Assembly (NCBI GenBank): GCA_963921795.1
Contig: OY997642.1
Coordinates: 3,702,444 to 3,766,443 of the forward strand
Length of the DNA: 64,000 bases
From: Nannobrachium achirus
Lineage: Eukaryota > Chordata > Actinopteri > Myctophiformes > Myctophidae
Direction: 5' to 3'
The notes beneath the pieces were generated by a model. The model saw nothing but the letters and a program-made list of their open reading frames with translations. It had not been told where the DNA came from and did no database searches. Within the stretch, counting starts at the first letter, position 1. Every line of letters begins with the position of its first letter. Below, piece after piece: positions 502 through 52,100 of the stretch. The position numbers were made by a program, and so were the translations under genes.

Positions 502-580
502 CACCACAGGATGATCCACACTGTATCCTTTAGCCCTGTAGGTCTTCACATTGCCAGCGATGGGGTAGGACATCCCATGA
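502..580 (-). CDS. adhfe1: adhfe1 exon 11 (last exon in window)
   Basis: A 79-base exon encoding [19 protein letters not shown] and SVDHPVV. The histidine of HGMSYP is a metal ligand. Donor GTGAGT. The acceptor and first 20 coding bases are repeated twice more on the upstream side. Nothing resembling the following PHGLSV exon is visible in 1-501. Confidence 0.94.
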
Positions 581-3500
581 CTACACAAACACATTAACAC
601 ATATTAACAACACGTTACCATGGGGTAGGACATGCCATGACTACACAAACACATTAACACATATTAACAACACGTTACCATGGGGTAGGACATGCCATGA
701 CTACACAAACACACACAACATCAACCACTAGATCAGTGGTTCTCAACCTTTCCAGGCCGTTGATCTACAAATAATCATATTTTAACTGGTCTACTAATTT
801 AGATAACATGTTATCTAAATTACATTGTATTTAAGCTTTGCATAAGACTGCAATGTCTACAAGGCTAGAAAGGCTTCAAGTGTTTATTTATGTGTTATTA
901 TTATATTTTCTTACCAGAGATGGACTCCTGCGTTTCCAAAGCCAATCCCTGCGAACACGCTGGCCAGATGCATGTTGGACCGGGCCTCCTTGTCCTCTCG
1001 GTCTGCCACTGACCTGCAAGGATCAATAACATTTAATACATCAACCATCAATCACAATGATCAATGACATTATCAATACATTCATCAATCAATCACAATA
1101 TCAATAACATTATCAACTAGAAAAGAAAATTTCTAAGAAATTTTAAGTGTGCCTGCAGCTCGCTAAGTCTGTGCAACCTTGTGTAGCGGTTGGTGTTAGC
1201 ATTAGCGTTATTAACATTAGCATTTTTTTGCATAAACGTTAACATTATTGTTCTTCATATGACACCACCCACATGTCTGTACGACAAACGGTTCACGAGA
1301 AAACGGGTCACTTCCTGTTTGGTGAGGGGCACTTCCTGTTTGGCGAAATAGGCCCCAATTAAGTTTAAGGACTCTTAATCTTGTCATTTGACGCAACCCG
1401 CGTGTCTGTATGACAAACGGTTCACGAGATCAAGGGTCACTTCCTGTTTGGTGAGGGGCACTTCCTGTTTGGCGAAATAGGCCCCAATTAAGGTCATGGA
1501 CGATTAATGAATTAAAGCTGCAAGCAGCGATGACCGGGCCCTCGCAGCTCTACCCACGTCACAAGGCCAGCAGCCAATCAGAAACCAAACAGGAAGTCAG
1601 CCATTTCGACTAATTAGTGGCGTTTTGGCGCATTTTTGGCCGTTATCACGGGTCGCACTTTAACGACAGTTTTGTGAGAAAAAAAACGTTTTTTGAGAAA
1701 AAAAAAAAGTTTTTTGAGGAAAAAAAAAATTTGAGAAAAAAAAAATTGAGAAAAAAAAAGTGAGAAAAAAAATGTTTTGAGAAAAAAAATGTTTTGAGAA
1801 AAAAGAAATTTGAGAAAAAAAAAATTTGAGAAAAAAAAATTTTTGAGAAAAAAACATTTTTGAGAAAAAAAAAATTTTGAGAAAAAAAAAATTTGAGAAA
1901 AAAAAAATTTGAGAAAAAAAAAAATTTGGAGAAAAAAAAATTTTTGAGAAAAAAAATTTTGAGAAAAAAAATTTTTGAGAAAAAAAAAAATTATGACACC
2001 AGCCGTGAGTCTGTACGACAAACGGTTCATGAGTTATAGAGGCACTTCCTGTTACAGAGGGGGCGGGGCTTAATCAATTACAGCTCATCCCTATTGGCCG
2101 GAAAAAGACCAAAGTTGTGTGTGCATTTTAAAGTTTAAATCACGTTGCTAGGCAAAAGTATGGCAGAGTTATGTGGCGCCAACGTTTCTGGTTTTTTTTC
2201 GGAGTCCCCCATTCTAAGTCAATGGGGTTTTTGGGCGTCGTTTTTTGCGAATTACATCGCAATCGTATCGCGGATCGGAAAGAAAAGTAATAGCACACCA
2301 TTCCCGGCCGAGCCGCACGTTTTGATGTGTATATTGCGGGGGTGGCGTAAATCGTGCGGCAGTTATTACGTGCCGAAATTTCCCCCATTCTAAGTGAATG
2401 GGGTTTTTTGGCGTCGTTTTTTGCGAATTACGTCGCAATGGTAACGCGGATCGGAAAGAAAAGTAATAGCACACCATTCCCGGCCGAGCCGCACGTTTTG
2501 ATGTATATATTGCGGCGGTGGCGTAAATTGTGCGGCAGTTATTACGAGCAGAAATTTGCAAGAACATTACTTACTGACTGACTGACTGACTTAAGTATGG
2601 CGGATTACAATAAGTGTTCTGCTATTGCATAGCAGGCACACTTAATAATCACACTGGTGAAAAAAGCAAACAGATAACTGTCACAAAATGAATAATATAA
2701 CGCAATATTATGCAAAAAAGGTTAGACCAAGGCACCCTTGGCGGAACATTAAAAAGCCTTTATTTCAGGGCTAATGCACCTACGCCATCATGGTGACTGA
2801 AGTCACCCTGAAGAAGGCATTTTTTAATATTCTTGCTATGCATTAGCCCTGAAATAAAGGCTTTTTAACTTTCCCCAGGAGTGCCTTGGCCTAACCTTTT
2901 TTGCATCTATTTTGTCACCTTTGCACCAAAGAGCACCTTGTGTGGGAGATTTTTACTCCACAGCCAAACAGTGTAGGAGAGACAGACAGTAGGACAGCTG
3001 AGAGACAGACAGTAGGACAGCTGAGAGACAGACAGTAGGACAGCTGAGAGACAGACAGTAGGACAGCTGAGAGACAGACAGACAGTAGGACAGCTGAGAG
3101 ACAGACAGTAGGACAGCTGAGAGACAGACAGTGTAGGAGAGACAGACAGTAGGACAGCTGAGAGACAGAGTGTAGGAGAGACAGACAGTAGGACAGCTGA
3201 GAGACAGACAGTGTAGGAGAGACAGACAGTAGGACAGCTGAGAGACAGAGTGTAGGAGAGACAGACAGTAGGACAGCTGAGAGACAGACAGTGTAGGAGA
3301 GACAGACAGTAGGACAGCTGAGAGACAGACAGTGTAGGAGAGACAGACAGTAGGACAGCTGAGAGACAGACAGTGTAGGAGAGACAGACAGTAGGACAGC
3401 TGAGAGGGAGACAGTGTAGGAGAGACATACAGTAGGACAGCTGAGAGGGAGACAGTGTAGGAGAGACAGACAGTAGGACAGCTGAGACAGAGACAGTGTA

Positions 3501-49100: not shown

Positions 49101-52100
49101 ATGATGTTTACATTATGATCACCTGCTAGAACCCTGTTTCATCATGTCTATGATGTTTACATTATGATCACCTGCTAGAGCCCTGTTTCATCATGTCTAT
49201 GATGTTTACATTATGATCACCTGCTAATAGGGCACTCACCATATTCGAATATTCGAATATCAAAGTTGTTCACCAATGTCGAATATTCGCTTATCTTTTT
49301 TTTTTTCTCTCTTTTAAAAAATATATAGTTTATAAAGCTTGGCTAGATAGGAAGTCATAAGAATGAGTTGTCAATGCCCCTGGTGGATGATTTGTTAATG
49401 CTCTATAACAGGGGTTCTCAAACCTTTTTAGGCCGTGACCCCCAAAATAAACATATTTGAACTGGGAGTGGGGACCCCCACCCTGACAAGCACTTGGAAT
49501 TGTAGGTACATCTAATGTGACTCGGTTCCGCAGATAAATATTGTGAAAATAGCGGCGTTGTGAGCATGTAGATCTGCTATTTTCACAATGTTCGCCTCTT
49601 GTACTTAATATTTGACAGTTTGGCCAGTCCTGTCGAATATTCGACTGTTCGAATACTTTGAGGTCGAATATTTCGAATACTAAAAATCACTATTCGTGAA
49701 TGCCCTACCTGCTAGAGCCCTGTTTCATCATGTCGATGATGTTTTCCACCAGCAGGTTGCGCTGCAGCCCGTAGACTCCGTGGCGGTCCAGGACCACCTC
49801 GTGACGACACGACGGACAGCGGAAGCGACCGCCCGACGTCACGGTGCCACCGCTCCTGGTGGTCATGTAGGGGTTGGCAGCCTGGAGAGCAAACACACAT
49901 AAAACAATAAATACATGTGGAGCTGCTTGTCCTGCACAGTGGACACAAACAGGTCTGATGCCTGAATAGTAGGGGTGTAACGATACATTTTAATAGCGAT
50001 TCGATACACATCACGATACATGGTTGATGATACGATACATGGACGATATTGGTTCATTCATAGCGATACGATACGATTCGATTCAATGATTTAAAATCGA
50101 TATAGTAACTATTTAGCAAAGACATTAAATCTGTGTGAAAGGTGTGGATAGTGCAGGTTTTTAAGGGAAACATGTATTATTATGGATATAAATAAGTAAA
50201 TACTGTGATTATCTGCCAAATACATGGACATTGTATATTGACAAACCTGCACCTTGACGTGAACACAGAGATTACACACATTTATCGATAGACCACTGTA
50301 GCTATATGTATATGGAATGGAAAAGTAATTAAACCCCTACTTTAAAATAATTCTTCTTATAAATGCTAAATACAAGGCACAAGTACAGTAGGTAGTATCG
50401 ATACAATCGATTCTTTGCACTACCGGTTCGATAAGATACAAAATAAAACGATACGATTCGATTGTGGCTGTTTTCATTTCGATATACTTCGATTTTTTAA
50501 GTTAAAAACGATATTTCGATGCAGTTACTAATATCATCATTACACCCCTATTGAAGAGCAAATTAAATTAAAGGACCCCCTCAAAAATGAGATGGGGGTT
50601 GTCTGGCCCTGTTACAGATGTCGTCCAAAAATCATGCCGATCGGTACACAGTATCTCTATAGCCATTAAACCAAACGGGTATTTCTTACATTGATGCTCA
50701 TATTATTATCATGTAAGCACCAGTTAAAGTTACTTTCCATCCCTCATATACTGTGTGCACAGTGCACATCCCATAACCCACACACTGCACATCATTTTGG
50801 AGCTCATATCTTTGAACGGGTAAGGGCTAGTTCTATATATTTGACAATTTGGCCAATGTTTAATTTGTCATTTTAGAGGTATTAAAAAGTCCTTAAATTG
50901 TCACATTAGAAATGTGCAGATACCCTCTATACACTTAAACTTTATGTTGGTTTGTTTACTGTTGAGTGTTGAGTCGACTTGCAAAAATCACAAGTCGTTA
51001 ATGCCCTAGTTTGAATAGTTCCAACCCCTACAGCCCCTGATCACTTGTTGCATTGTTGCTATGTGGCTACACGCTCATGGGATGCATTTTATATAGCTTT
51101 AATGCATTGTGTATTTTATGTATGTTTTATTGTTGTTTACCGACTGACTGGCTGTGTGCCAAAGACACATTTAAATTTCATGCAAAATTTGATGGACAAT
51201 AAAGTTTCTTATCTTATCTTATTTAGTAACGTGGGTCTTCCCCAGGGACGTGCAGAGAATATTAGAGAGGCAGGGTCTGAAATGTCTAAAAGGGCCTTTT
51301 GGTAAAATATCAAAAATAGCAGACCTCCACGATTTTACAGACAGAGCTTGGGGAGGTCGGTTATTTTCGGTGCTTGATACCACCCTGAACTAAGCATAAT
51401 CAAGTCAATACTGGAGATGTGGCAGTGGCATATGGCATGAATTGCTACACAGAGAGAGCAATTCTTTCAACATAAGATGCTGCATTCAAGTTCAGGGAGT
51501 TTGGACAAGGCAATTCTCTTGAATGCTGCCTTCAGGTATGGCATGGAAAGAGGGGCATTTGCATTTCTTGCATTGTTGGCCCTGTGGAGTGAGTGTGTAA
51601 ATATAGTGGCCGTCTCCATCATCATAGTTGCCCAACGCTGCAATATAAGCTAGGGACAATTTTCTAAATAGAAAAAAGAAATACAGAAATCCCTTATAGG
51701 CCCGCAAAACTTTTAGCTACTTAGGACGTTTGCTCTTAATAATAGGCACATGTAGATGATCAGGCCTGTCAACAAGGCCAACAGCCTATTGTGTAGGAGG
51801 TTACAACATTGTTTCTCAAAGTGGGGTCCGGGAACCCCCAGGGGTCCTTGAGGGAGTTCCAGGGGGTCCCCAGCTAAATGTAAGATAGTCAGGAACCAAC
51901 AAATGGGTCTGTAACTCAGAGAGAGTACAAATGGAACCAAATGGACCTGAGAGTTAAAATAACATTGATTTGACAAAATATACATCTTATCCTGTGTTTC
52001 TTAAACTGGGCTATCAGAGATATAAATACCATTAAATGGGGGTCCGTAGCCTAATGCATGTCAAACTGGGGGGTCCTTGACATTAAAACGGTTGAGAATC

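Follow-up and report, generated by a model that had tools for sequence, protein, structure and literature searches.

Exon-anchored minisatellites in two genes of Nannobrachium achirus, and a probable bias of arrays toward exon ends

Introduction

Why should tandem repeats in a gene begin at the very edge of an exon and carry its splice site with them? The question is raised by a stretch of 64,000 nucleotides from the genome of the ray-finned fish Nannobrachium achirus (C5:3702444-3766443, in a 1.66-Gb assembly of 564 contigs), which was analysed whole and is called the window here. It holds 21 coding exons of two genes on the minus strand, adhfe1 (11 exons, truncated by the window's left end) and trim55 (10 exons). 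An earlier note, made from the letters of this DNA, had claimed that nine of these exons have a tandem duplication or array whose unit takes in bases of the exon together with its splice site or stop codon. All nine are present: in the window, tandem units touch eight splice edges and one exon end with a stop codon. We interpret them as exon-anchored minisatellites, probably of the same structural kind as the mirages known from amphioxus, and we consider whether arrays meet exon ends more often than chance placement would have them do.

Results

Exons were placed by tblastn of human proteins and with a home-made splice-aware protein aligner, and arrays were called by Tandem Repeats Finder (TRF) over the full window (Table 1). 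Unprompted, TRF reported seven of the nine edge arrays near or at the exon edge, that of adhfe1 exon 8 grazing it by 6 bp, whilst those of trim55 exons 2 and 8 needed other evidence. At the junctions, exon bases run through the splice site into the intron and then restart. The end of adhfe1 exon 6, CCTCTCATAGCAG/GTAGAG (the slash marks the exon edge), is repeated about 26 times by TRF copy number, and GT is kept in 21/21 downstream copies that were split out. Likewise, trim55 exon 5 ends in ACATCAG/GTACAAC, its 30-bp unit repeats about 32 times, and all 25 of the downstream copies split out keep GT.

Minisatellites are dense in the window, where 37 merged TRF arrays with a unit of at least 16 bp make up 20.5% of the sequence. 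Two arrays that the note had placed away from exons, 22905-24396 and 45141-46443, do lie apart, with the nearest exon 2.1 and 2.5 kb away, respectively. Its view that the edge arrays are independent events also held up: unit sizes and sequences differ, and the sole unit searched genome-wide, that of trim55 exon 2, matches its own exon only. When the genome was searched for a 24-base core of this unit, with up to two mismatches allowed, 37 matches came up, every one at the trim55 exon 2 locus; the count includes exon 2 itself and the exon's 1.26-kb duplicate. Within coding sequence, the minisatellites of trim55 exon 9 encode proline/alanine-rich repeats in frame.

At trim55 exon 2 the array is separated from the exon by a transposon of about 480 bp, which we take to be hAT-like from its end motif and the length of its target site; related stretches with 80-84% identity were found in other loci that were read. 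The insertion point is exactly the exon 2 donor, and the element's first bases, TA, complete the donor GTAGGG. Together, the target duplication and the first bases of the transposon recreate a GT donor, with the transposon forming the start of the intron. A larger tandem duplication, with a unit of 1,263 bp, takes in the transposon, a portion of the array and the final 36 bp of exon 2, and its starting point in the exon is that of the 49-bp unit. We read this block as a renewed duplication from one exon point. Exon 2 and its recent duplicate have CATCATCGAC, and the remaining 35 of the 37 core matches have CATCATAGAC. These 35 have in common a base that is absent from both exon 2 and the duplicate; the exon copy appears to have been left out of homogenisation, a statement that concerns the trim55 exon 2 array only.

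The pattern recurs elsewhere in the same genome. Three unrelated, many-exon families, selected by exon number and blind to repeats, provided an independent sample of 12 genes with 191 exons (six atp2a, four atp1a and two glycogen phosphorylase genes), part of them incomplete at one end; about 0.29 Mb of the genome was read in all. Coverage extended to four of the six atp1a loci with many exons and left aside two atp2a loci of 3 exons, three or more of the five phosphorylase loci and the trim paralogues. In this sample seven arrays start within an exon end, five in atp2a and two in atp1a. All seven touched edges lie at the same residue in paralogues that have no array there, which shows the direction to be from exon to array and not the reverse. 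The window contributes six to the multi-gene counts: adhfe1 exon 8 does not reach the overlap required, and neither exon 2 nor exon 8 of trim55 is counted. Together the 13 TRF edge arrays, with units of 30-75 bp, divide into 9 donor, 3 acceptor and 1 terminal.

One atp2a gene (C12:17937000-17976999) carries a 57-bp duplication of the end of exon 8. By eye, the second copy's own GTCTGT seems to be used as the donor, with a segment of exon now the start of the intron. Separately, an array at C1:50254507-50255214, found in a search for donor motifs and with a unit of the form ...CATCAACCACCCTCACATCCAAG/GTGAGT, may be a further exon-anchored donor array.

Could such arrays be artefacts of repeats that were collapsed or mis-assembled, or of misplaced exon edges? 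An assembly error could also produce a perfect duplication such as that of 1,263 bp. However, the larger arrays hold distinct variant copies, 16 different exon ends are affected, and the exon edges have GT/AG and agree with the paralogues. An artefact is thus highly improbable.

Table 1. Tandem arrays and associated elements in the window (window positions) and edge arrays in the independent genes. A slash within a sequence marks the exon edge.
Feature	Position	Strand	Evidence and description
adhfe1 exon 11 acceptor repeat	560..713	-	TRF, 60 bp x 2.6; exon edge at 580; 21 bp exon overlap
adhfe1 exon 8 acceptor, decayed repeats around TGTGTTCAG/GTATT	7736..7973	-	TRF; self-alignment score 24
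adhfe1 exon 6 donor array	11723..12896	-	TRF, 44 bp x 26.4; first copy 13 bp within exon
adhfe1 exon 5 acceptor duplication	16361..16496	-	TRF, 67 bp x 2.0; 42 exon bp
trim55 exon 10 (last), unit includes stop codon	30981..31094	-	TRF, 44 bp x 2.6
Minisatellites inside coding exon 9 of trim55, with periods of 45, 39 and 57 bp	31675..32392	-	TRF; one open frame; serves as comparison for selection within exons
trim55 exon 8 donor, three decayed copies of exon end + donor	33020..33210 (approximate, by eye)	-	Self-alignment score 34; absent from TRF list
trim55 exon 5 donor array	39650..40630	-	TRF, 30 bp x 31.9; first copy 7 bp within exon
trim55 exon 4 donor repeat	41938..42098	-	TRF, 75 bp x 2.1; 12 exon bp
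trim55 exon 2 donor array, spacing 49 or 43 bp	47013..49226	-	TRF and sequence; full unit = 36 exon bp + donor
1,263-bp tandem duplication unit	48482..49744; second copy 47228-48490	-	0 mismatches
Putative hAT-like transposon, ends TAGGGCA...TGCCCTA	49228..49706; second copy 47974-48452	-	Sequence; 8-bp target duplication CTAGCAGG and TTAGCAGG
atp1a (C24) edge array			33 bp x 43.3; start 27 bp within exon
atp1a (C2) edge array			32 bp x 7.0
atp2a (C3) edge array, acceptor			32 bp x 24.9
atp2a (C4) edge array			44 bp x 6.5
atp2a, three low-copy edge arrays			53 bp x 2.1; 57 bp x 2.0; 39 bp x 3.0

The number of exon contacts to be expected varies with the null, and several were run. Two are judged nearest to the biology, since an edge exists once before expansion and exons tolerate at most one copy. 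Under a birth model, with one unit placed on the edge and spurious micro-splits of one atp2a gene merged, 13 of 90 arrays in a set of 12 genes that includes those of the window are edge arrays against 1.9 expected; all 13 are among the 45 with a unit of at least 25 bp, and none is among the 45 with shorter units. For the independent genes the same model gives 7 against 0.72 (GC-matched) to 0.96. The other null sets random pseudo-exons in the same introns, with an overlap of at most one unit (2,000 shuffles, floor P = 0.0005). Here the independent genes yield 7/61 arrays against 3.39 (P = 0.046), 7/21 against 1.11 with units of 25-100 bp (P = 0.001) and 4/5 against 0.16 with at least five copies (P = 0.0005). 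Over all 14 genes the figures are 13/90 against 4.22, 13/41 against 1.76 for units of 25-100 bp and 6/16 against 0.53 for at least five copies, each at P = 0.0005; an earlier run without the phosphorylase genes was concordant.

Under these two models the independent genes have about 2 to 10 times the expected number, an excess that is concentrated in expanded arrays. There, the four contacts among five arrays of at least five copies compare with 3/56 low-copy arrays (P = 0.0003), and over all genes the comparison is 6/16 with 7/74 (P = 0.01). In the window itself, with entry into exons limited to 45, 60 or 80 bp and without the three arrays in the coding sequence of trim55 exon 9, 7/34 arrays are at edges against 1.07, 1.75 and 2.14 expected (P = 0 of 2,000, 0.002 and 0.0035); the exon lists of the window placement nulls lacked small exons that were placed later. 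Arrays that start at exon edges were thus found to exceed comparable random placement, as the note had supposed, both in the window and in the 12 other genes. Taken together, these data lend moderate support to a bias toward exon ends, one that probably goes beyond chance placement.

A number of results weigh against such a bias. Some of them also favour an account in which exon ends have no special affinity: duplication would be uniform, selection would bar damage to exons so that edges are stop points, and the excess would stem from the choice of null, from detectability and from a window as rich in repeats as this one. When full-size arrays are placed anywhere in the window (with trim55 exon 9 also lacking from the exon list), there are 7 arrays against 4.1 (P = 0.10) and 7 edges against 6.5 (P = 0.475); a circular shift gives 7 arrays against 4.1 (P = 0.053) and 7 edges against 7.0 (P = 0.58). 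If overlaps of up to 80 bp are allowed, the independent genes show 7 against 4.82 for units of at least 16 bp (P = 0.19) and 7 against 2.36 for units of at least 25 bp (P = 0.006), and the excess over all genes is weaker, at 13 against 6.95 (P = 0.02).

Point-wise self-alignment was also run, leaving out edges with an exon below 40 bp or a searchable intron below 60 bp. Uncollapsed, it gives 15/386 edges against 126/2544 intron points and hence no excess. Collapsed, with periods below 10 bp ignored, the independent genes give 8 against 8.5 (P = 0.61), 8 against 5.7 (P = 0.21) and 7 against 4.0 (P = 0.11), with 7/34 against 1.1 in the window. With all TRF periods collapsed, they give 8/352 against 4.0 (P = 0.049) and 7 against 2.6 (P = 0.016), or 8 against 6.1 at the laxest score (P = 0.27), with 7/34 against 0.95 in the window.

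Further points on the same side come from the arrays themselves. The low-copy arrays of the independent genes match expectation, about 3.2 by subtraction, and show no excess. In the two phosphorylase genes (28 exons, one gene partial) there is no TRF array with a unit of at least 16 bp, both having been selected for compactness, which biases toward few arrays. A genome-wide count of a triple donor motif was uninformative, with 1,419 against 913 for the reversed motif; most of the listed sites belong to families of similar arrays. The cut-offs at 25 bp and at 5 copies were chosen with the data already in view. Moreover, a frozen exon copy would keep a two-copy array detectable for up to about twice as long, inflating the edge count. 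Lastly, arrays lying 1-100 bp off an exon, with no contact, number 14 against 9.4 (P = 0.07), or 6 against 3.7 for units of at least 25 bp (P = 0.15). This is no clear excess, and it leans toward exon DNA within the array as the factor, as opposed to simple proximity to an exon.

We nonetheless regard an absence of affinity as unlikely. Placement anywhere allows exons to lie inside arrays, a situation that selection forbids. The unconstrained null counts each copy of a large array, and the uncollapsed point-wise test in our view over-weights expanded arrays, given that the edge existed once before expansion. Moreover, the independent genes were selected blind to repeats, and yet most of their expanded arrays lie at edges. 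In three donor arrays, those with six or more units of standard length, columns are conserved at a mean of 0.99-1.0, so differential decay explains little there.

A different explanation would place the cause in the junction, as a specific source of mutation that acts at donors above all (for example co-transcriptional R-loops, nucleosome edges at exons or splicing-coupled breaks). Among TRF arrays at splice sites the surplus of donors over acceptors has P = 0.15, windows spanning a junction hold 13 arrays against 1.3-1.6 expected from intron windows, and the slight surplus within 100 bp of exons points the same way. However, the absence of an excess among the low-copy arrays of the independent genes speaks against it, and donors that have arrays differ from those that lack them neither in strength nor in the GC content of the exon end. 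GC content was rejected as a cause on this ground and because the GC-matched expectation is not above the flat one. Selection could also yield the donor bias: the spliceosome would come upon an upstream copy of the acceptor first, and such a copy may do more harm, in which case a commoner donor side is what one would expect. A mutation source of this kind is quite improbable, and the proposal in the note that duplication is favoured at junctions was not upheld by the counts of low-copy arrays, by donor strength or by exon-end GC.

The anatomy of the arrays bears on how they began. In five arrays the bases left over beyond whole copies number 0, 0, 1, 1 and 3 (from TRF ends, which are approximate); the first duplication therefore seems to have needed little homology. 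Periods are a multiple of three in 6/14 edge arrays and in 3/3 coding-exon arrays (those of trim55 exon 9), the contrast expected if extra copies at edges are spliced out. In this single assembly the larger arrays contain nearly identical copies, a hint of recent change. Introns with donor arrays are longer than others (P = 0.003), and the arrays themselves add length.

Extra splice sites might also be useful, providing isoforms with repeated peptides or surer recognition of the exon, and so be kept or expanded by selection. GT is kept in 61/63 downstream copies split from eight donor arrays; where arrays were longer, the unit splitter recovered fewer units than TRF did, and a ninth, the 43.3-copy array of atp1a, is outside this count and has GTAAGA or GTGAGA after every copy displayed. 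Moreover, 4/10 donor arrays combine a unit that is a multiple of three with a read-through open across the first unit, and human IFI6, in which several donors of one minisatellite are used, is a precedent. Against this, GT is kept no better than the other bases of near-identical copies. Compensation for weak donors was rejected, as the mean donor score is 7.3 with an array (n = 10) and 7.5 otherwise (n = 161, P = 0.85). Shielding from nonsense-mediated decay through read-through stops was also rejected: these show no enrichment, with 3/10 within the first unit against 58/117 other introns within about 45 nt, a comparison that decides neither way on usefulness. We consider maintenance through usefulness very unlikely.

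Further features lie outside this argument. Within adhfe1 introns there are long plus-strand open frames at window positions 14240-15715 and 16766-17353, which resemble pieces of the reverse transcriptase of a long interspersed nuclear element (LINE). Near full-length intronless open frames at C15:18057102-18060074, C15:18648074-18651046, C5:37787398-37790379 and C15:46219676-46222672, three of them resembling atp2a (84% identical to the human protein) and one resembling atp1a (80%), are apparently retrogenes. Two trim-like intronless frames were seen at C22:37933143 and C24:27079291, and a dense cluster of trim-like open frames, with weak matches to TRIM55, at C4:62.4-66.7 Mb.

Discussion

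We propose that the arrays described here are exon-anchored minisatellites of the same structural kind as amphioxus mirages and that they arise in four steps, a reading to which we give a probability of roughly 0.6. First, a tandem duplication of about 30-75 bp would occur across an exon edge, near-blunt and with little homology at the breakpoints. Second, the duplication would survive, with one full exon copy and its own splice site staying on the exon side. The extra copies, with their extra GT or AG, would fall in the intron, and the length of the unit would thus be free of the multiple-of-three rule. Third, slippage or unequal exchange in the intron would amplify and homogenise the array, and coding selection would fix the exon copy, which would mark the end of the array. 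Fourth, amplification to many copies would be more frequent if an array includes exon DNA than if it is purely intronic, and selection would purge arrays within exons except in proteins that can accommodate in-frame repeats. For the first three steps the anatomy is read from the sequence, the use of the exon-side (first) splice site and the process of amplification we infer, and the fourth step is a statistical result. The alternative raised in the note, that selection freezes one edge, explains why arrays stop where they do; it does not explain the excess of highly expanded arrays there.

A bolder version would have exon ends as genome-wide nurseries of minisatellites in a vertebrate. A duplication that includes exon DNA would then be far likelier to be amplified, most highly expanded genic minisatellites would start in an exon end, and within exons they would be hidden only by selection. 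We put this forward tentatively and suspect that it reaches too far. If the bias were true genome-wide, it would tell of the origin of genic minisatellites, it would mean a steady supply of extra splice sites on which alternative splicing and changes to introns could draw, and it would be a testable bias in a mutation process usually taken as blind to exon borders. For annotation there is a warning, as exon ends within arrays can disturb gene models and read mapping in such genomes.

Three known systems besides mirages invite comparison. Introners, in the passages of PMC9860276 drawn on here, are one element copied into many genes and tied to splice sites. As in our arrays, repeated sequence is found at splice sites; in contrast, the units here are unrelated between loci, and the only unit searched, the trim55 exon 2 core, matched a single locus and not many.

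Tandem duplication can also give rise to introns. The Rogers model, as cited in part of PMC3087553, has an intron gained by tandem duplication of an exon segment bearing AGGT, and in the portion of PMC4974935 considered, the RNA-dependent RNA polymerase gene of potato is a case of intron gain by this route. Both involve a short tandem duplication with splice signals, as here. However, the introns in our genes are old and their ends only repeated: no new intron was found at the seven atp2a and atp1a edges, which sit at the residues of their paralogues, and for the window genes the comparison is the match to human proteins. The nearest exception is, by eye, exon 8 of the atp2a gene on C12.

The older literature reportedly includes Canestro 2002 as the original paper on amphioxus Adh3, Zhuo 2007 as a paper on human tandem arrays, and Turri et al. 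1995 on the minisatellite of human IFI6 (6-16) with its multiple splice donors. In IFI6, according to the excerpt of PMC4526556 used here, two downstream minisatellite units serve as donors and three mRNAs result. The likeness is that repeat units of a minisatellite carry splice donors; the difference is that many exons are affected here, with downstream GT sites known from sequence alone.

The closest likeness is to the mirages. In the sections of PMC3087553 and PMC3902484 considered, these are minisatellite-like tandem repeats over exon/intron boundaries, on the 5' and 3' sides, in Adh3, globin, TnC and PGBD5, with a unit of 10-160 bp that differs by locus. Many copies carry AG/GT signals, the cluster is homogenised with the boundary copy excluded, RT-PCR (reverse transcription PCR) pointed to regular splicing, and the repeats have been observed to be unstable (PMC3087553 and PMC3902484). 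The note had taken such a pattern to be undescribed, whereas mirages and the donors of the IFI6 minisatellite were already known. No report of a general pattern in fishes was found among the matches listed from the open-licence literature. Our arrays agree with mirages in that units span the exon-intron boundary, at the window edges given above and at 7 splice edges elsewhere. They also agree in that donors and acceptors are both hit (9, 3 and 1 terminal of 13) with unit lengths that vary by locus, and in that the cluster is homogenised without the boundary copy in the trim55 exon 2 array (35/37), the one array examined for this. They differ in belonging to a ray-finned fish and to unrelated genes, and in reaching up to 43 copies by TRF. 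The structure is therefore of a known kind, and it is the preference for exon ends that merits testing across the whole genome.

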